Assembly: GCA_012519425.1 (NCBI GenBank)
Contig: JAAYQF010000087.1
Location: 1 to 64,000 of the forward strand
Source of the DNA: Bacteroidales bacterium
GTDB taxonomy: Bacteria > Bacteroidota > Bacteroidia > Bacteroidales > Paludibacteraceae
Direction of reading: 5' to 3'
DNA: 64,000 bases
Below, piece after piece: positions 38,387-60,535 of the stretch (its first letter is position 1; each line of letters starts with the position of its first letter). Position numbers and translations under genes: made by a program. The notes beneath the pieces were generated by a model. That model was given only the letters and a program-made list of their open reading frames with translations. It was not told the origin of the DNA and searched no databases.

Positions 38387-39937
38387 ATGGCAACATCAGC
38401 ACAAGTTATTGGAGCATCCATACTTTTTGCGGTTTATGTGGTGTTCGTACTCTACTTTGTAATCAAAGGTGCGCGTGGTACGAAAAATATCAATGACTAC
38501 GCAGTCGGGAGTTTTACGTTTTCGCCTGTTTACGTGGCTTTGTCGTTGGCTGCTGCCATGACAAGCGCTGCTACTTTCGTGATAAACCCCGGATTGATAG
38601 CTACTTATGGTTTGAGTGCCTATATTTCGTACGGATTAGTGTTCCCGTTTGCATCATTGGCATCGCTGGTTATTCTGACCAAAAGTTTTAGAAAATACGG
38701 TCAATCTGTAAATGCACTAACCTTGTCGAGTTGGGTTGGAAACAAGTATAACAGTAAAGGTTACGCATTATTTGTTGCCTTCCTTACAGTTTTGCTGTTG
38801 ACATTTATTGTGTTGATTTTAGTTGCTTTGGTAAAGGTAGCCGCACAAGCATTGAACGCCAATCAGATTGTGGTTCTTGCTGTTGTGGTTGTCTTTACAT
38901 TTGGGTATATGATGTTTGGCGGTGCTAACTCCATGGTGTATACCAACGTGATTCAGGCTTCGCTGATGATTCTGGTAGCACTTATTTTAATTGGTTCAGG
39001 CTTTCAGTTTTTTAAAGATGGATTTTTCGGTTTCTTTGAAAAGTTAAAGATAATTGACCCGCAATTGGTGAAATTCCCGAACGAACAAAGTCCGCTCTTC
39101 CGTGATTTCTTTGAAATAGTTATTGCACAATTAGTTGTAGGAGCAGCTGTGGTAGCCCAGCCACACATCATTACCAAATCTTTGTTGTTGAAAAAAGAAA
39201 GCGATGTAAATAAATTCCTAACTGTTTCGGTTATTGTTCAATTTTTGTTTTATTCGGTGGTATTTGTAGGACTGTTTGCACGTTTGCTTTTTCCTGATCT
39301 AACATTGAATGGAGAGCACATCAATGTTGATAGTGTTATATCCAATTATGTAATTACTGTTTTCTCGGGTGGAGTAGGTTCATTGTTGGTTGGACTTTTG
39401 GTAATTCTTGGCTTGATCAGTGCCGGTTTTTCAACTATTGAAGGACTAATTCAATCATTAAGCACCACAATAACCACGGATATTATCAAACCGCTTTTTG
39501 GAAAATCGATAAAAAACGAAAATAGTTATATTACTATCAATCGGGTAGTAATAGCCGTAATGGCAGTGGTAGCTTTTCTGATGTCGAGAGAGCAGATCGT
39601 CAATCCCAACGTGAGCGTAGCTATTTTTGCTCAAAACGGAACATATTCCTATTTCTCGATATTGATTGTACCGTTGGTGTTTGGAATTTTCCTGAAAAAC
39701 GCGAAAATGAAGTCAGCACTTTCAGGCTCAATAACTGCTCTTGTGGTCTATTTTATTGTGTATTACCTGCTACCTCATCTTTATAAGTCAGGTGTAGCCA
39801 GCTTTGGTTTTGCCAACCGTTATTTCGGTGATCAAGTGCAAAATCCGGGCATTGCAGCCGCTATCGCTATATTAGCAGCATTTGCAGTGGGACTCAGTGT
39901 TCATTTTCTCAGCAGAAATAAAGAGAAAGTACAGTGA
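38387..39937 (+). CDS. sodium:solute symporter (SSS family)
   Basis: An inner-membrane protein of 516 residues with about 13 transmembrane segments. The SSS pattern is clear: an early AAAMTSAATFVINPGL helix (sodium-site region) and the GLISAGFSTIEGLIQSLSTTITTDI helix and loop. It looks closer to monocarboxylate or short organic-acid carriers than to sugar carriers, but the substrate cannot be read from sequence. It starts 11 bp after the SDR and precedes a CoA transferase, which fits uptake of an acid that is then activated with CoA. Confidence 0.88.
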   Translation: MATSAQVIGASILFAVYVVFVLYFVIKGARGTKNINDYAVGSFTFSPVYVALSLAAAMTSAATFVINPGLIATYGLSAYISYGLVFPFASLASLVILTKSFRKYGQSVNALTLSSWVGNKYNSKGYALFVAFLTVLLLTFIVLILVALVKVAAQALNANQIVVLAVVVVFTFGYMMFGGANSMVYTNVIQASLMILVALILIGSGFQFFKDGFFGFFEKLKIIDPQLVKFPNEQSPLFRDFFEIVIAQLVVGAAVVAQPHIITKSLLLKKESDVNKFLTVSVIVQFLFYSVVFVGLFARLLFPDLTLNGEHINVDSVISNYVITVFSGGVGSLLVGLLVILGLISAGFSTIEGLIQSLSTTITTDIIKPLFGKSIKNENSYITINRVVIAVMAVVAFLMSREQIVNPNVSVAIFAQNGTYSYFSILIVPLVFGIFLKNAKMKSALSGSITALVVYFIVYYLLPHLYKSGVASFGFANRYFGDQVQNPGIAAAIAILAAFAVGLSVHFLSRNKEKVQ

Positions 39938-39972
39938 GTATGAAGCACATAAAAGAACATTGTAACTACCCA

Positions 39973-40005
39973 ATCGCAAATCTAAAATTGTAAATCTAAA
40001 ATTTG
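39973..40005 (+). repeat. heptanucleotide-period repeat, A/T-rich tract
   Basis: Successive units read ATCGCAA, ATCTAAA, ATTGTAA, ATCTAAA, ATTTG: a 7-nt period with variable units. The same unit family recurs at 41390-41424. It fills most of the spacer between the symporter and the CoA transferase. Confidence 0.65.
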
Positions 40006-40013
40006 AATATATT

Positions 40014-41324
40014 ATGGCCAAATTCAAAGAAATTTATCAAAGTAAATTAATTCCATTGGAAAAAATGCCCGATCTGCTCCAAAGTGATACAGATGTGATT
40101 GTAGCGCAGTGTGCATCTGAACCACAAGGATGTATGTCGGTATTTCATTTGGCAAAAGAGCGTGTGAGAGATGTGAAAGTATTTTCTGTTCTTACTTTGA
40201 AACCCTATGAATTCTATATGAAACCGGAAATGAAAGGACATTTTGAACTTTGCAGTTGGTTTCATGCACCCGGTTCGCGCAAGGCATTGAAGGAAAAAAC
40301 AGGAACCGTTACTTATGTTCCAAATATGCTCCACCGTGCCGCATCTGACAGGATGAAAGTGCGTCGTCCGCATATGTTTGTGGGCACCTGTACACCGCCC
40401 GATGAGAAAGGGTTTGTTTCGCTTTCGCTGGGAATAACGTATGAGAAAGATATTCTGGAAGCAGCGGAAATAACTGTATTGGAAGTTAACGACAAACTGC
40501 CGAGAACATTTGGTGATACGCACGTACACGTTTCGCAGGTAGATTATTTTGTGGAATATTCTCAAAACCCGCCTACAATACCGGAACCTCAGCCGGATGA
40601 AGTAGCAATGAAAATAGGGAAACATATCGCTGACCTAATAGAAGACGGTTCTACTATTCAACTGGGAATTGGTGAAATTCCAAATGCTGCTGCGCTGATG
40701 TTGAGAGACAAGAAAGATCTGGGTGTTCATACTGAAATGATGGTAGACAGTATGATGGAACTGTATGATATGGGTGTTATCACCAATCAAAAAAAGAGCA
40801 TACATAAGGGAAAGTTTATCTGCACGTTTGCTATGGGAAGTGATAGACTTTATCAGTGGCTAGACAATAATCCGGCAGTAGAATTCTTGCGTGGTGCCTA
40901 TGTGAATGATCCGTGTCTGATTCGTCAAAATTCGAAAATGGTTTCCATCAATACTTGTATGGCGATTGATTTTACCGGTCAGGTGGCAAGTGAAGGTGTC
41001 GGCACACGACAATATTCCGGAACCGGTGGGCAGAGTGATACCGCTGTTGGAGCTATTGATGGTCTGGATGGAAAAGGAAAATCCATTATTGCCTGCCGTT
41101 CGACTGCCAAGGGCGGAACAATTTCTACCATTGTTCCTGTGCTGGCTCCCGGAACGGGAGTTACGCTTCATCGAAGTGATACAGATTACATTGTAACCGA
41201 ATACGGAAGTGTAAGATTGACCGGTCGTACCGTTCGTGAACGTACCGAACTACTGATTTCTATTGCTCATCCGGATTTCAGAGAAGAGTTGAGAAAGCAG
41301 GCAGAAGAGATTGGGTATTTGTAA
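40014..41324 (+). CDS. CoA-transferase of the acetyl-CoA hydrolase / 4-hydroxybutyrate CoA-transferase family
   Basis: 436 residues with the two-domain class I CoA-transferase fold. Features are FVGTCTPPDEKGFVSLSLG in the N-terminal half, IQLGIGEIPNAAALML before the catalytic region, and HTEMMVDS, where the Glu is the expected nucleophile. The C-terminal block VTEYGSVRLTGRTVRER is present. The family moves CoA from acetyl-CoA to hydroxy or keto acids such as 4-hydroxybutyrate, butyrate or acetoacetate. It differs clearly from the Cat1-type protein at 34430, so the two probably use different acids. Heptad repeats flank it on both sides. Confidence 0.85.
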   Translation: MAKFKEIYQSKLIPLEKMPDLLQSDTDVIVAQCASEPQGCMSVFHLAKERVRDVKVFSVLTLKPYEFYMKPEMKGHFELCSWFHAPGSRKALKEKTGTVTYVPNMLHRAASDRMKVRRPHMFVGTCTPPDEKGFVSLSLGITYEKDILEAAEITVLEVNDKLPRTFGDTHVHVSQVDYFVEYSQNPPTIPEPQPDEVAMKIGKHIADLIEDGSTIQLGIGEIPNAAALMLRDKKDLGVHTEMMVDSMMELYDMGVITNQKKSIHKGKFICTFAMGSDRLYQWLDNNPAVEFLRGAYVNDPCLIRQNSKMVSINTCMAIDFTGQVASEGVGTRQYSGTGGQSDTAVGAIDGLDGKGKSIIACRSTAKGGTISTIVPVLAPGTGVTLHRSDTDYIVTEYGSVRLTGRTVRERTELLISIAHPDFREELRKQAEEIGYL

Positions 41325-41325
41325 T

Positions 41326-41424
41326 GCCGGATGTCGGATGACCGATGTAGGATGTCCGATGATGAGTGACTGATGTGAAGGAAATAATTAAATTGTAAAT
41401 TGTAAATCTAAAATTGTAAATTAA
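41326..41424 (+). repeat. heptanucleotide-period repeats, two unit types
   Basis: Directly after the stop codon come units such as CGGATGT, CGGATGA, CCGATGT, AGGATGT, CCGATGA, TGAGTGA, CTGATGT (41329-41379). Next is an A/T-rich tract with ATTGTAA, ATTGTAA, ATCTAAA, ATTGTAA (about 41390-41424). The period is 7 nt in both although the sequences differ. They fill the whole 102-bp spacer to the next gene. Confidence 0.7.
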
Positions 41425-41426
41425 AT

Positions 41427-42437
41427 ATGGTGTTACCAATAAAAATAGTTGCTACCGGACTCTATGCCCCGGGTGAACCAATAGGAAATGAAGAATTGAA
41501 GCAGTTGGCAGGGATTGAGTTTAATCATGAAAAAATTGAAGAAAAAATCGGGATCAAGCAACGTCACATTGCCCATCTTAGAAATCTGCAGGAAACTACG
41601 GCAGATTTTGTGACCAAATCAGCAGAAGATGCCTTGAAAAATGGCGGCTTATCAGCCGACGACATCAGTCTGTTTGTCGTGGCAACCGATACTCCCGAAT
41701 ACGTTACTCCTGCAACAGCTATTATTCAGCAAGGGCGATTACAGAAGGGTGAAAAATGGAGTATGTCTTTTGATGTTTCAGCATCATGTGCAAGCTTCAC
41801 AATGGCTTTTGATGCGGCTTCCCGGATTCTTGCAAACAATCCGAAAATTAAATATGCACTTGTAACCGGAGTGTATAATATGCCTGCATTTATCCGTCCG
41901 GGTGATAAGTTCTCTTATCCGCTTTTTGCCGATGGAGCAGCTTCTTTTATTCTTTCAAAAGATGATACCGGCAAATCTGCTTATATTGGCAATCAAATGT
42001 TGACCGACGGAACTCAGTTTGATTATATTGGTATCTATGCAGGTGGTTCTAAAATGCCGGTAACCAAAGAAGTTTTAGAAGAAGAAAAAAACGGTCTTCT
42101 AAGTCTTAAGCCCATGCCGGGCGACCGAAATGTACGGCTTTGGCCTATGGTAGTAGAGAAACTTCTTACCGAATACAGTGTGAAAGCTGACGAGATTGAT
42201 CATTATATTTTTACACAAATCAATCGCTCAGTGATCATACAAGTAATGGAAGCCATCAATCAGCCTATAGAAAAGGCAATGATGATAATGGACAAATACG
42301 GCTATACAGGCTCTGGTTGTGTGCCAATGGCACTACACGAAGGAGTTAAATCGGGCAAGATCAAGCGTGGAGACAAAGTGCTTTTCATGGCATCAGGTGC
42401 AGGTTTGTCTGTGGGGAGTAATTTGGTGGTTTATTAG
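41427..42437 (+). CDS. KAS III-like protein with Cys but without the His/Asn of the triad
   Basis: 336 residues with the thiolase-fold architecture of 3-oxoacyl-ACP synthase III. The nucleophile C121 is in place (DVSASCASF). The position of the FabH His (PHQAN) reads FTQIN with T263, and that of the Asn (YGNTSAAS) reads YGYTGSGC with Y293. Without these, ordinary malonyl decarboxylation is unlikely; acyl transfer or a non-decarboxylating reaction is more plausible. It is paired with a second, differently altered KAS III-like gene downstream and lies after a CoA transferase. The C-terminal glycine-rich GAGLSVGSN loop is intact. Substrate unknown. Confidence 0.78.
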   Translation: MVLPIKIVATGLYAPGEPIGNEELKQLAGIEFNHEKIEEKIGIKQRHIAHLRNLQETTADFVTKSAEDALKNGGLSADDISLFVVATDTPEYVTPATAIIQQGRLQKGEKWSMSFDVSASCASFTMAFDAASRILANNPKIKYALVTGVYNMPAFIRPGDKFSYPLFADGAASFILSKDDTGKSAYIGNQMLTDGTQFDYIGIYAGGSKMPVTKEVLEEEKNGLLSLKPMPGDRNVRLWPMVVEKLLTEYSVKADEIDHYIFTQINRSVIIQVMEAINQPIEKAMMIMDKYGYTGSGCVPMALHEGVKSGKIKRGDKVLFMASGAGLSVGSNLVVY

Positions 42438-42637
42438 TAGTTAGTAGTTAGTAGTTGGTAGTTGGTAGATAGTAGATAGGAAGTTAAAGAAGTTAAAGAA
42501 GTTAGGGAAGTTACGAGTTCCGGGGTCTAATTCATTCTTCGTTCATCACTCTTTGTTTGTCTTTGTTCTTTGTTCCTTGCTCTTTGCTCCTTGTTCTTCA
42601 CTTTTCGTTCTTAGTTCTTTTAGTAAATTGTAAATAA
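42431..42637 (+). repeat. long heptanucleotide-period repeat filling a 206-bp spacer
   Basis: Beginning at the stop codon, units run TAGTAGT, TAGTAGT, TGGTAGT, TGGTAGA, TAGTAGA. A stretch of GAAGTTAAA-type units (period nearer 9) follows, then a pyrimidine-rich series such as TCTTTGT, TCTTTGT, TCCTTGC, TCTTTGC, TCCTTGT. The tract ends at TAAATTGTAAAT, the A/T-rich unit seen in other tracts. Part of it matches the reverse complement of 59424-59538. Confidence 0.75.
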
Positions 42638-42643
42638 AAAGAT

Positions 42644-43657
42644 ATGGTAAACGTAGGAATAGTTGGAACCGGAATTTATATGCCGGATACAAAAATGTCT
42701 GCTAAACAGATTTCAGAAGCTACAAAAGGCGTATGGAGTGAAGCAGCGGTAATAGAAAAATTGGGAATTGTAGAAAAAACAATTGCCGGTCCTGATGATG
42801 GCACGCAAGAAATGGGTGTACGTGCTGCGTTGGATTGTTTGAAAAACACGGATGTCGATCCAATGGAGATAGACCTGATCCTCTGTATTGGTGAAGAATG
42901 GAAAGAATATCCGCTCACCACATCAGGGATTTATATCCAGGAAAAAATCGGAGCCAATAATGCCTGGGCAATTGACATTCAGCAACGTTGCGGAACAACG
43001 GTAGCAGCCATGAAAATAGCCAAAGATATGATGATAGCCGACGAGAAGATGAAAACAATTATGATTGTAGGCGGTTATAGAAACGGAGATTTTATCGATT
43101 TTGAAGACAGTGCTGTTTCGTTTATGTTTAATCTGGGAGCCGGTGCCGGAGCGATGATCTTGAAACGCAATTACGGGAAAAACTTGGTTTTAGGCACGCA
43201 CATCATCACAGATGGAACAATGGCGCGCGATGCAGGTGTGCTTTATGGTGGAACGAAAAACCCGATTACAGCAGAAAACGCTCACCTGGCTTATAAATCG
43301 CTGAAAGTCTTTAATGTAGAGCACATGAAAGACCGGTTAAATGAAGTTTCAATGAAAAACTGGTTTCATTGCATTGATAAGGCATTCGAGAAATCGGGAA
43401 TTCAGAAAAGTGAACTCGGTTTCCTTTGTTGTCTCCATTTTAAGCGCAGTATGTTTGGCTATATGCTGACTGAACTTGGATTGACCTGGGAGCAGAGCAT
43501 TTATCTCGAAAATTACGGACACATTGGTCAAATAGATCAAATTCTGTTACTCCATTTAGCACAGGAACGCAATTTATTGAAACCCGGAACGGTAGTTTCC
43601 ATGATAGCAGCCGGAATAGGATATGCCTGGGGAGCTAATGTTATCCGATGGGGATAA
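42644..43657 (+). CDS. KAS III-like protein with altered triad (Cys-His-His)
   Basis: 337 residues, KAS III/thiolase fold. C116 (IDIQQRCGTTVAAM) sits at the nucleophile position. H265 (CLHFKRSM) takes the place of the FabH His. The Asn position of YGNTSAAS is H293 in NYGHIGQID. It shares only distant similarity with the neighbour at 41427. Two adjacent, complementary variants (one Cys-only, one Cys-His-His) suggest they may work together as a heteromeric enzyme, but nothing in the sequence proves that. The surrounding genes point to CoA-ester chemistry. Confidence 0.75.
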   Translation: MVNVGIVGTGIYMPDTKMSAKQISEATKGVWSEAAVIEKLGIVEKTIAGPDDGTQEMGVRAALDCLKNTDVDPMEIDLILCIGEEWKEYPLTTSGIYIQEKIGANNAWAIDIQQRCGTTVAAMKIAKDMMIADEKMKTIMIVGGYRNGDFIDFEDSAVSFMFNLGAGAGAMILKRNYGKNLVLGTHIITDGTMARDAGVLYGGTKNPITAENAHLAYKSLKVFNVEHMKDRLNEVSMKNWFHCIDKAFEKSGIQKSELGFLCCLHFKRSMFGYMLTELGLTWEQSIYLENYGHIGQIDQILLLHLAQERNLLKPGTVVSMIAAGIGYAWGANVIRWG

Positions 43658-44386: not shown

Positions 44387-44544
44387 ACGGTGTTTCATAA
44401 GCGCCCAACTGCTGCGTTACTTTCGATATTCGGGCTCAGTCACATACTTCAGTATGCTCCTTCACCCTCAATCTCAGCGCCTTGCATTTGGACTCTTCTG
44501 AAACACCTTATTTTTTGCTTGAATATTTACTTTTGAGATAGTCC
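44387..44544 (-). repeat. MITE-like element, near full-length copy (inverted)
   Basis: About 158 bp. Its reverse complement matches 59129-59290 almost throughout, starting GGACTATCTCAAAAGTAAAT and ending TTATGAAACACCGTC. Imperfect terminal inverted repeats (GGnCTGTCTCA type against GGTGTCTCATAA type) bound it and no open reading frame of note is inside. It lies between the lipoprotein and barrel genes and lengthens that spacer to 269 bp. A target-site duplication is not obvious. Confidence 0.8.
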
Positions 44545-48944: not shown

Positions 48945-50462
48945 ATGGGAAAAGTAAGAGTAAGGTTTGCGCCGAGTCCGACCGGACCGCTACACATTGG
49001 CGGCGTAAGGACGGCATTGTACAATTATTTGTTTGCCAAAAAACACGGTGGCGATTTTTTGTTGCGCATTGAAGATACCGATTCAACCCGTTTTGTACCC
49101 GGGGCTGAGGAGTATATTGTAGAGGCTTTGCAATGGCTTGGAATTCAGGTGGACGAAGGCATTGGGGTTGACTCAACAGGGCCGCATGCCCCCTACCGCC
49201 AAAGTGAGCGTAAGGTTATTTACAAGCAATATGTAGATCAATTGTTGCAAGCAGGATTGGCTTATATAGCTTTTGATACGCCTGCCGAACTGGAAGCAAA
49301 AAGAACCGAAATCTCCAACTTTCAATATGATGCGTCCACGCGGATGCAGATGAATAACTCACTCACACTTTCTGCAGACGAGGTGCAAAAACGTATTGAT
49401 AGTGAAACCCAGTACGTTGTGCGCATCAAAATTGAGCCACACCAGGAGATTGAGGTCGATGATTTGGTGCGCGGAAAAGTAGTGATCAATTCATCGGTTC
49501 TTGATGATAAGGTTTTGTATAAATCAGCAGATGGTTTGCCCACCTATCACATGGCCAATGTGGTAGATGATTATCTCATGGAAATTTCACATGTCATTCG
49601 CGGTGAGGAATGGTTGCCCTCCTCGCCTTTGCATGTTTTATTATACCGCTATTTAGGATGGTCGGATAAGATGCCGCAATTTGCACATTTACCTTTGTTA
49701 CTAAAGCCCGATGGCAATGGCAAATTGAGCAAGCGCGATGGCGATAGATTGGGTTTCCCGGTTTTTCCCTTAGACTGGAAAGATGAAAAAACAGGAACCA
49801 TATCTTCGGGCTACAGAGAAGCCGGCTATTTTCCTGAAGCCTTGGTGAATTTCCTGGCTTTGTTGGGATGGAATCCGGGTACGGAGCAGGAGATTTTTAC
49901 CATGGATGAATTGATTGATTTGTTTTCTTTGGAGCGTGTGAGTAAAAGCGGAGCCAAATTCGATTATGAAAAAGGGAAATGGTTCAATCATCAATATGTC
50001 CAATTAAAGTCTGTGGAAGAAATCGCTGATTTATTTTATCCGGTGTTGGTTGAACACAATATTAGTGCAGACAAGCAAAAGGTAAAAAAAGTGGTGCAAA
50101 TGGTACGAGAAAGGGTGAATTTCGTACATGAATTGTGGGAGCAGGCTTCTTTCTTTTTTGTAGCACCAACTGCATATGCTGAAGCTGCTATCAAAAAACG
50201 CTGGAAGACTCAATCTGCTGGGCAGATGCAGGAATTAGTGTCAGTATTAGAGACTATAAATGATTTCTCATCAGAAAACACAGAAGAGATTGTAAAAGCG
50301 TGGATAGCGTCCAAAGAGTATGGCATGGGAGCAGTCATGAATGCTTTCCGCATCTGTCTGGTCGGCGACTCTAAAGGTCCGCATCTTTTTGATATAACCG
50401 GGATTATTGGCAAGGAAGAAACGATCAAGAGATTAAAAAGGGCAGTGAAGGTTCTGGGGTAG
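48945..50462 (+). CDS. gltX: glutamyl-tRNA synthetase
   Basis: Charges tRNA-Glu with glutamate. It is 505 residues long. The class I HIGH motif appears as HIGG in [25 protein letters not shown], and the KMSKS loop as [11 protein letters not shown]. The glutamate-specific RIEDTDSTR segment and the C-terminal anticodon-binding helical region are intact. A G-rich heptad-like stretch (GGGTTCC, GAGGTGC, GTGGCCG) follows the stop codon immediately, before the glycosyltransferase gene. Confidence 0.97.
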
Positions 50463-50528
50463 CGGGTTCCGAGGTGCGTGGCCGTAATTTTTTAGGTTTT
50501 GCCTAACGGTACATATGGTTTATTAAAT

Positions 50529-58097: not shown

Positions 58098-58877
58098 ATG
58101 GACTTTCAAATGGGAATTAAAGATATAATCGACATAGTTCTTGTAGCGATTTTGCTGTATCAACTTTTTATATTGCTGAAAAAATCCGGTGCACTGAGTG
58201 TCTTTCTGGGTATCATCAGCTTCTTGATCATCTGGTATCTTGTGTCCAAGGTATTTAAGATGGAATTGATGGGCGGAATCTTTGACAGGGTGGTTAGTGT
58301 AGGTGCCTTTGCCTTGATTGTGCTCTTTCAGGAAGAAATACGCAAATTTTTTGCGCGTCTGGGGTCCAGAAGGCAATGGGCTTTTCATAAATTTTTGAAG
58401 AAAGTTTTTGGAAATGGAAAGAGTGATAATGAAAAAACAGACTATAATATTGTGCAGATTGTGTTGGCTTGTCGCAATATGTCCAAAATGTCCACCGGTG
58501 CACTTATCATCCTTGCCCGTAAGAGTAGCTTGGAGACGCAAATACAATCAGGAGAGCTTATCAATGCAACCATTAACTCACGCCTGATAGAAAATATATT
58601 CTTCAAGAACAGTCCGCTTCATGATGGTGCAATGATCATCCGTGATAACAGGATAGTTGCTGTCTCTTGCATCATACCTGTCTCCAAAAATCAAAGTATA
58701 CCCAAACGCCTTGGCTTGAGGCACCGTTCAGCCTTGGGAATCACCGAACAGACAGATGCCATTGCAATTGTTGTTTCCGAAGAGTCCGGCAAAATATCTT
58801 ACGCAATCAATGGTGAATTAACGCTCAATGTGAAACCGGAAGAGCTGGAAATGTTTTTGTCAAGCGCGATGATATAG
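58098..58877 (+). CDS. cdaA: diadenylate cyclase CdaA (c-di-AMP synthase)
   Basis: Makes the second messenger c-di-AMP from two ATP. 259 residues: three N-terminal transmembrane helices (about 8-85) and then the DisA_N cyclase domain. Both catalytic motifs are present: DGA in SPLHDGAMIIRDNRIV and RHR in LGLRHRSALGITEQTDA. The length matches the membrane-bound CdaA class. Its 9-bp spacing from folP suggests an operon. A G-rich heptad-like tract (GGGTCGC, GGGTTCC) begins just after the stop codon. Confidence 0.93.
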   Translation: MDFQMGIKDIIDIVLVAILLYQLFILLKKSGALSVFLGIISFLIIWYLVSKVFKMELMGGIFDRVVSVGAFALIVLFQEEIRKFFARLGSRRQWAFHKFLKKVFGNGKSDNEKTDYNIVQIVLACRNMSKMSTGALIILARKSSLETQIQSGELINATINSRLIENIFFKNSPLHDGAMIIRDNRIVAVSCIIPVSKNQSIPKRLGLRHRSALGITEQTDAIAIVVSEESGKISYAINGELTLNVKPEELEMFLSSAMI

Positions 58878-58935
58878 GGGTACAGGGTCGCGGGTTCCGT
58901 GGTCGCGGGGTTAAAACGCTGTAGGGTACAAATCG

Positions 58936-59090
58936 ACCTTGACCGATGAGCCGAAAAATAAGTGAGAACAGCGCTTAAAATCGTCCTTGTTTGAGCAACG
59001 AAGTTGCAGGTTTGGACGATTTAGCTGTTTGAGCGCTAATTTTTCAAGCGAAGCAGGCATAGTCTTGACTTTTTTTGCTTCGTTTTTTTG
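58936..59090 (+). repeat. repeat B, copy without the terminal hairpin arm
   Basis: Matches 32543-32712 from TTGACC through CGAAGCAGGCATAGTCTTGACT and TTTTTGCTTCGTTTTTTTG, but then changes to unrelated sequence, so the CAAAAAAATGAAG arm is missing. It again lies between convergent genes (cdaA and fba). The 665-bp spacer 58878-59542 holds four repeats or terminators and no gene. Confidence 0.7.
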
Positions 59091-59128
59091 TAGGGATATT
59101 CGTTAAATTCAAATTTAAAAAATATGTT

Positions 59129-59290
59129 GGGGCTGTCTCAGAAGTAAATGTTCAAGCAAAAATTGTAAGGTGTCTTAGAAGTGTCTAAATGCAAGGCACT
59201 GAGATTGAGGGCGAAGGAGCATACTGAAGTATGTGACTGAGCCCGAATATCGAAAGTAACGCAGCAGTTGGGCACTTATGAGACACCGCC
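59129..59290 (+). repeat. MITE-like element, near full-length reference copy
   Basis: About 162 bp starting GGGGCTGTCTCAGAAG and ending TTATGAGACACCGCC; the ends are imperfect inverted repeats. The centre has a CATACTGAAGTATG hairpin. It is co-linear with the reverse complement of 44387-44544, and its right half equals 1-89. AATAT occurs on both sides, a few bases from the left end, but I cannot confirm a target duplication. No transposase gene is inside. Confidence 0.8.
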
Positions 59291-59375
59291 AATATATATT
59301 CTTGCCGTATCTTCAGTAGTTGACTACCCCCGTTTTGAGCCAAAATTTGTAAACACGAGGTAATATCCAAAAACA

Positions 59376-59416
59376 AAAAAGCCAACTATCTCAAAATGAT
59401 TTAGTTGGCTTAATCT
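59376..59416 (-). terminator. terminator downstream of fba
   Basis: AAGCCAACTA (59379-59388) pairs with TAGTTGGCTT (59402-59411) around a 13-nt loop. On the minus strand the stem is followed by a T-run (the A-run at 59371-59380 read in reverse), suiting termination of fba. Confidence 0.7.
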
Positions 59417-59423
59417 TATTAAT

Positions 59424-59538
59424 TAACGAACATCCCTAACTTCTTTAACTTCTTTAACTTCCTGACTACTAACTACTATCTACCAGCTACTTAACTTCAA
59501 TAATCAGTTCTTAGTTTTTCGTTCTTCGCTTTTCGTTA
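59424..59538 (-). repeat. heptanucleotide-period repeat downstream of fba
   Basis: Contains units such as TACTAAC, TACTATC, TACCAGC, a series of TTCTTTAAC units (period 9), and TTCTTAG/TTTTCG-type units. Its reverse complement matches much of the tract at 42431-42637 in the same order. It runs up to within a few bases of the fba stop codon. Confidence 0.7.
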
Positions 59539-59542
59539 ATTT

Positions 59543-60535
59543 TTACGCTTTCCCTGCACTACCCAACACATGTTTAGTTTTGTGCATGTACAGTTTCTTT
59601 AACTCTTCGCGGGCAGGACCTAAGTACTTGCGCGGGTCAAATTCAGCAGGATTGTTGGCGAGCACTTCGCGTACAGCGGCTGTCATTGCTAGTCTACCAT
59701 CAGAGTCAATGTTAATTTTACACACAGCCGATTGAGCGGCGTGGCGTAATTGGTCTTCCGGAATACCGATGGAATCCTTCAAATTACCACCATATTTATT
59801 AATTGTCTTAACGTATTCCTGCGGAACTGAAGAAGAACCGTGTAAAACGATGGGGAATCCCGGAATTCGTTTTTCGATTTCTTCCAGGATGTCGAAACGC
59901 AGTGGAGGCGGAACAAGTACGCCATTTTCGTCGCGGGTACATTGCTCAGGAGTGAATTTGTTGGCTCCGTGTGAAGTTCCGATGGAGATGGCCAAAGAAT
60001 CAACCCCGGTCCGGGTAACAAAGTCAACTACTTCTTCCGGACGAGTATAGGTGTGGTGTTCAGCAACTACATCGTCTTCAACACCCGCCAAAATACCCAA
60101 TTCGCCTTCTACTGTCACATCGTGTTTATGTGCATATTCAACCACCTTTTTAGTCAAGGCAACATTTTCTTCATAAGGAAGATGTGAACCGTCAATCATA
60201 ACTGAAGAAAATCCCATGTCAATACAGTCTTTGCAAAGTTCAAAGCTGTTACCGTGGTCTAAGTGCAACACGATAGGGATGGCATATCCCAATTCTTTGG
60301 CATATTCAACTGCTCCTTGTGCCATGTAGCGTAACAAGGTTTGGTTGGCATACTTACGGGCACCGCTCGATACTTGTAAAATAACCGGCGATCTGGTTTC
60401 TACACAGGCTGCAACAATTGCCTGTAACTGTTCCATGTTGTTGAAATTAAAAGCAGGAATGGCATATTTACCTTCGAAGGCTTTTTTGAATAATTCTCTG
60501 CTGTTAACTAAACCAAGTTCTTTGTAACTTACCAT
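59543..60535 (-). CDS. fba: class II fructose-bisphosphate aldolase
   Basis: A zinc-dependent glycolytic aldolase of 330 residues. The metal ligands and active-site segments are visible: VLHLDHGNSFELCKDCIDMGFSSVMIDGSHLPYEENV (His and Asp), VEGELGILAGVEDDV, SIGTSHGANKF, VLHGSSSVPQEY and KINIDSDGRLAMTA. A promoter-like TATTTTTG (minus strand, 60582-60575) lies 40 bp upstream of the ATG. It is transcribed alone, ends in heptad repeats and is followed by a terminator. Confidence 0.95.
   Translation of the reverse strand: MVSYKELGLVNSRELFKKAFEGKYAIPAFNFNNMEQLQAIVAACVETRSPVILQVSSGARKYANQTLLRYMAQGAVEYAKELGYAIPIVLHLDHGNSFELCKDCIDMGFSSVMIDGSHLPYEENVALTKKVVEYAHKHDVTVEGELGILAGVEDDVVAEHHTYTRPEEVVDFVTRTGVDSLAISIGTSHGANKFTPEQCTRDENGVLVPPPLRFDILEEIEKRIPGFPIVLHGSSSVPQEYVKTINKYGGNLKDSIGIPEDQLRHAAQSAVCKINIDSDGRLAMTAAVREVLANNPAEFDPRKYLGPAREELKKLYMHKTKHVLGSAGKA

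Follow-up and report, generated by a model that had tools for sequence, protein, structure and literature searches.

Intergenic spacers of the uncultured Bacteroidota bacterium studied here hold arrays of short tandem words which, judged from their sequences, form a family of dispersed, mosaic composite elements, as indicated by a fixed word order and by copies that can be aligned at many loci. We regard them as probably near-neutral, lineage-specific and fast-evolving heptad minisatellite-like elements, which would grow in 7-nt steps and be copied between spacers by recombination. The window analysed, i.e. the whole stretch of 64,000 nt, belongs to a metagenome-type assembly of 2.39 Mb in 142 contigs (94.7 % complete), whose relatives in the genome collection are Bacteroidales and Paludibacter-like metagenome-assembled genomes. 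The spacers studied separate genes encoding a sodium:solute symporter, a CoA-transferase and two beta-ketoacyl-ACP synthase III (KAS III) enzymes. Genome-wide tests were carried out on 1.12 Mb of the 2.39 Mb genome, taken as stretches, in which a hexamer model served for gene calling and gave a coding fraction of 0.876 (masked N runs included); genome-wide rates are approximate, because some contigs in this sample were chosen for holding matches.

In the window, the arrays of the KAS III region all lie on the plus strand. Heptads of AAATCTA/AAATTGT (39978–40006) stand directly 5' of the CoA-transferase start, GATGnnn heptads of the CGGATGT type (41324–41376) directly 3' of its stop, and TAAATTG leader heptads (41389–41425) before the first KAS III gene. 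Both leaders differ from those of relatives by whole units: the CoA-transferase leader is longer by 14 nt (2 units) than the orthologous leader in G506 (L020), and the first KAS III leader by 21 nt (3 units) than that of G507 (L022). The GATGnnn array is not present in the orthologous loci L020, L022 and L025, and L024 has other GATG/GGATGTT words.

The segment 42437–42643 is a single multi-part composite. It begins with TTAGTAG heptads (module A, 42434–42479) that overlap the KAS III stop codon, followed by GAAGTTAAA nonads (module B, 42480–42513), the usual neighbour of A in composites, by a short module C (GAGTTCCGGGGTC, 42514–42527), by module E (TTCGTTCATC, 42534–42550) and by the pyrimidine heptads TTTGTTC/TTTGCTC/CTTGTTC of module H (42551–42620) with E-type words at the end, giving the order A B C E H E; the conserved leader AAATTGTAAAT follows module H. 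A second composite copy (59424–59538, minus strand) lies downstream of the gene for class II fructose-bisphosphate aldolase (59543–60535, minus strand). It contains B nonads and A heptads on the minus strand and TTCGTTC words on the plus strand, and is a rearranged copy, its A/B part (59429–59496) matching 42446–42512 at 88 % on the opposite strand. Short C-type words are found on the plus strand after the stop codons of gltX (stop at 50462; GGGTTCC and GAGGTGC, 50463–50484) and cdaA (GGGTCGC, GGGTTCC and GTGGTCGC, 58877–58912). All the tracts named by the sequence-only reading of this DNA were found, i.e. the heptads, the 9-nt stretch, the reverse tract and the G-rich words after gltX and cdaA. 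Rfam covariance models gave no match in 39000–60000.

Other non-coding features of the window were recorded. Near its left edge (182–315), a 68-nt unit is present in two imperfect copies, with a related stretch near 59050. A terminator-like hairpin, GCCAACTA...TAGTTGGC, is located near a T run at 59366–59411 (minus strand), and similar sequences occur in other spacers. Distinct from the heptad composites, a dispersed non-coding element of about 157 nt, MITE-like and with near-inverted ends (GGTGTTTCA...TGAAACACC), is found at 44388–44544 and 59127–59288 and at about 20 further places in the window genome and in the same-genus G499, its copies being mostly 86–93 % identical.

Across the genome, dispersal occurs in ordered blocks. 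A vocabulary of about ten words recurs in about 45 spacers, with order and relative orientation fixed: the heptad TTAGTAG (A), the 9-nt GAAGTTAAA (B), GTTCCGGGGT (C), AGCTTTTGG (D), TTCGTTC (E), the 8-nt ATTCAACA (F), ACATTAA (G), TTTGTTC (H), the linker CCACAAAAGGCACAAAAG (I) and AATCACC (J). The order runs A, B, then C/D/E or I/J, then F/G/H. Pattern scoring returned 44 clusters of at least three modules with nearly one order and relative orientation; A stood before H in 57 cases and after it in 3, B before H in 67 vs 4, and C before E in 27 vs 0. Copies show a mean identity of about 91 % over alignments of up to 310 nt, non-periodic linkers such as AAACCACAAAAGGCACAAAAGAAATTTCACC are shared between loci, and some loci have exact non-periodic 45-mers in common. 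Copies lying within 10 kb resemble one another more closely than distant copies do (p = 0.009). The claim that units are unrelated between tracts was therefore abandoned, since the same vocabulary recurs from locus to locus. In the same-genus G455, the linker CCACAAAAGGCACAAAAG occurs 35 times, often as inverted pairs about 90–170 bp apart which (e.g. L108 and L110, same place) look as if they were the ends of a hairpin-like element.

Seven is the favoured step of these arrays and is preferred independently of sequence. It is a step and not an inherited word, because period 7 leads the counts of distinct words both here and in relatives. With words counted as distinct when more than two mismatches apart, the window genome has 6 of period 7, 3 of period 8, 1 of period 9 and none of periods 10–12, and the relatives have 7, 2, 0 and 1, respectively; this clustering is severe for units of 5 and 6 nt, of which there are few tracts. 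The dominant units of the window genome are TTAGTAG, TTTGTTC, GTTCCGG and AAACATT. Within the 1.12 Mb (masked bases excluded), autocorrelation identity of the spacers peaked at lags 7, 14 and 21, with values of 0.328, 0.317 and 0.309, and had a median of 0.291. The lag-7 excess was absent from coding DNA (0.254), so that the check proposed by the sequence-only reading, peaks confined to spacers, gave the expected result. In the same sample, TRF identified 134 intergenic tracts of period 7, 14, 21 or 28 and 37 of period 9; spacers simulated with a third-order Markov model contained no tracts of period 7 or 9, and those of periods 14 and 21 summed to about 0.4.

Arrays grow locally in 7-nt steps. 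Exact tandem duplications of 7 nt numbered 137 vs 12 expected, those of 8 nt 30 vs 3 and those of 9 nt 32 vs 1, and duplications of 6 nt (50 vs 42) and 5 nt (135 vs 128) were near expectation; in spacers devoid of any detected tract, 7-nt duplications were still in excess (22 vs 9.2). Gap lengths between element copies peaked at 7 (55), followed by 8 (38), with a second peak at 14 (25), and in orthologous spacers overall a modest excess was found at 7 (28) vs 21 at 6 and 17 at 8. As in heptanucleotide tandem repeats, the 7-nt period is above chance and mainly intergenic, and copy number changes by whole units. The step had been described as constant; 7 is indeed preferred but not absolute, because 8-nt and 9-nt words belong to the same elements. 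A copying mechanism that counts length, also suggested from the sequence, agrees with a sequence-independent step and with leaders longer by 14 and 21 nt, but nothing supports its tie to helical pitch.

Comparison with relatives revealed a fast turnover of words. Orthologous spacers in four sister genomes contain different words or none, the genes around the first KAS III gene being 86–93 % identical in DNA. The KAS–KAS spacer measures 206 nt in the window genome and 116, 44, 213 and 227 nt in the sisters, three of which have GATG/GGATGTT and TCTAACA-type words and one of which has no array. TTAGTAG pairs number 229 in the window genome and 1, 2, 11 and 0 in the four sisters. The idea of a free sequence under a fixed period consequently holds across sisters, where words differ and the step is mostly 7, but not within the genome, where a recurring vocabulary keeps its order and orientation. 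Lag-7 identity was raised, with other words, in G506, G507, G508, G455 and G496, and not in G509; the genome-scale comparison of empty sites comprised only 36 syntenic spacer pairs and 3 tract spacers.

At the scale of the phylum the trait is patchy, because TTAGTAG arrays occur in 12 of 395 sampled Bacteroidota genomes (window genome included) and no general lag-7 excess was seen in a 20-genome sample (0.8 SD in aggregate, one clear positive). The positions that vary within words are 5 and 7 in the window genome but 4 and 6 in other Bacteroidota. As the variable positions differ between species, there is no shared conserved core, and a recognition motif made of a conserved 4-nt core and 3 variable nt was thus rejected. 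TTAGTAG heptad arrays were also seen in viral contigs of IMG/VR (13 stretches, L171–L183). Separately, the operon at 38387–43657 is 86–93 % identical in DNA to L020, L022, L024 and L025, other sampled genes of the same genomes being only about 65–74 % identical, and one of its gene ends is 98 % identical to G509; horizontal transfer of this operon with breakpoints in spacers is possible on these identities.

Element position appears to be set by tolerance: elements lie in any spacer type but keep clear of the sequence immediately 5' of start codons. Their incidence was 14.4 % in co-directional, 11.2 % in divergent and 13.8 % in convergent spacers, and start codons were not favoured (median gap 69 nt). 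Because incidence is alike across spacer types and start codons are avoided, the elements appear to be near-neutral, tolerated material, and they are probably non-functional filler. At face value, 23 of the 76 tracts overlap or touch stop codons vs 7.3 expected. This closeness exists for the most part because elements avoid the 40–80 nt before start codons; once this zone is treated as forbidden, stop-codon targeting is weak or absent, and the link to stop codons that the sequence-only reading had drawn from the tracts at 41324 and 42437 mostly disappears. A link with the replication strand was likewise discarded, GC skew showing no association with elements. Some elements reach into the ends of genes and seem to lengthen reading frames, as at C132:517–3678 and C138:28983–30299. 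Since predicted genes end inside arrays (these two and C53:125870–126640), array words may encode altered C-termini of these genes.

In 24 of 33 co-directional spacers (24:9), the composite is oriented opposite to transcription, a bias that a purely neutral model does not predict. Compared with shuffles, composites are less structured (median z about +1) and other spacers more structured (−1.8); this low structure could simply follow from the repetition of non-complementary words, or could be due to selection. Direction bias and lack of structure both favour functional RNA or DNA elements, in which each array would offer multiple binding sites to a protein that covers 7 nt, of the cold-shock, S1 or another single-strand-binding type, on mRNA in intercistronic and 3' regions, the period being selected and the words drifting. 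The step is indeed kept while words change, and such a role has been proposed for TAACTGA arrays (MacGregor 2015, PMC4679880). However, incidence is similar in divergent and convergent spacers, which lack 3' ends and 5' ends, respectively, both orientations occur, arrays are missing from orthologous spacers despite the high identity of the genes, and no core positions are conserved across species. We therefore consider a functional role of this kind rather unlikely.

Homologous copies dispersed in intergenic DNA could also derive from a non-autonomous mobile element of MITE or REP type with internal tandem repeats and a transposase acting in trans; BrickBuilt, from the same order, is a precedent for such an architecture (PMC4596501). 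This explanation is improbable. Transposition is disfavoured because neither inverted ends nor target duplications nor a Y1 transposase were found: inverted and direct matches between composite flanks, which terminal inverted repeats and target-site duplications would raise, were at chance level, and PF01797 (Y1 transposase, RAYT) had no match in the 94.7 %-complete genome. Moreover, composites have no common sharp ends, and partial ones are truncated at either side. Reverse transcriptase was not found in the genome either, the enzyme screens being those for Y1 transposase and reverse transcriptase. REP/RAYT spread and reverse-transcriptase spread were rejected on these grounds, as was loss of MutS as a cause, two MutS-family genes being present.

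Purely independent slippage from locus to locus, in which arrays are never copied from one place to another and the same words recur because they slip easily, finds a basis in the 12 genomes with TTAGTAG arrays and in the in-situ growth of leaders. For composites it is contradicted by unrelated words in fixed order, by shared linkers and by the long alignments, and we judge it very unlikely as a general explanation; for isolated single-word arrays it may hold. An artefact of assembly or binning in a short-read metagenome genome is scarcely credible, for although the assembly is of metagenome type with 142 contigs and tracts lie at 4 of 65 contig ends vs about 1.8 expected, tracts are also found inside contigs between different unique genes, and similar arrays, made of other words, occur in relatives assembled independently as well as in distant Bacteroidota genomes with a listed completeness of 99–100 %.

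The near-neutral heptad elements that we favour could arise as follows. Short local sequences of spacers would be duplicated in tandem, by a step of 7 nt in strong preference to 8 or 9 nt, and the resulting arrays would change in length by whole units, a pattern that slippage or unequal recombination, which we suggest as the molecular cause, would produce. Neighbouring arrays of different words would then be joined into fixed-order composites. These would be copied between spacers through recombination or template switching instead of a transposase; here the copying is observed and its route is putative. Finally, tolerance would decide where elements persist, so that function is not required for the pattern. 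More tentatively, and with less confidence than doubt, we suggest that some Bacteroidota possess an uncharacterised replication or repair process with a duplication step of about 7 nt whatever the sequence, together with copying of ordered blocks without a mobile-element enzyme, which would give species-specific, rapidly replaced 'dialects' of words.

Although the sequence-only reading knew of no described heptad family in this phylum, TAACTGA arrays have been reported in five Bacteroidetes, Paludibacter included, where in some species they occur alongside other heptamers, and where the corresponding spacers of relatives lack them (MacGregor 2015, PMC4679880). The arrays described here resemble them as intergenic 7-nt direct repeats of Bacteroidetes, absent from matching spacers of close relatives and sometimes interspersed with other heptamers. 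TAACTGA repeats have one dominant word, lie mostly just upstream of start codons in Beggiatoaceae and were not reported as ordered composites (PMC4679880); the window genome, in contrast, has many words and block-dispersed elements, start codons are not favoured, the unit is not TAACTGA and arrays are not placed within a few nt upstream of start codons. Heptad repeats of bacteria with a predominance of period 7, for which slippage tied to polymerase contact length was proposed, were described by Mrazek in 2007, as cited in PMC4679880 and PMC4692102. As presented in these citing papers, those long simple sequence repeats share a favoured period of 7 and an intergenic location with our arrays, but are mainly from other phyla and made of one word, whereas ours are degenerate, word-mixed and joined with 8- and 9-nt words. 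The GGGAATC / GGGGA(C/T)T heptads of Xanthomonas and Nostoc (PMC4692102) are similarly genome-wide and intergenic, with length and sequence varying between close species; they consist of a single G-quadruplex-forming word, while words of the window genome are mostly not G-rich. BrickBuilt, the MITE of Porphyromonas gingivalis (PMC4596501), is likewise a dispersed intergenic element of Bacteroidales with tandem repeats inside and full and partial copies, but has a 23-nt repeat, a leader, a tail and terminal inverted repeats, and inverted ends were not found in our composites. Tandem heptanucleotides of the cyanobacterium Calothrix are mentioned in PMC4692102.

A limited literature search brought up no description of ordered composites in which many heptad words are copied as blocks. 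Several different tandem heptanucleotides coexist in one Calothrix genome, as in the window genome, a likeness of description with a member of another phylum; we know of no fixed-order composites there. Heptad repeats are thus known, including in Bacteroidetes, and ordered composites appear to be new.

In practice, elements of this kind can interrupt assemblies and cause gene callers to err at 3' ends. Two points stand out for their biology. One is the dispersal of ordered composites, with neither inverted ends nor a mobilising enzyme detected. The other concerns the step itself: an excess of heptads in the spacers of bacteria has been on record since 2007 with no established cause, and a lineage that starts new words at a step of about 7 makes this cause, be it the contact length of the polymerase, limits of repair or selection on spacing, directly testable.
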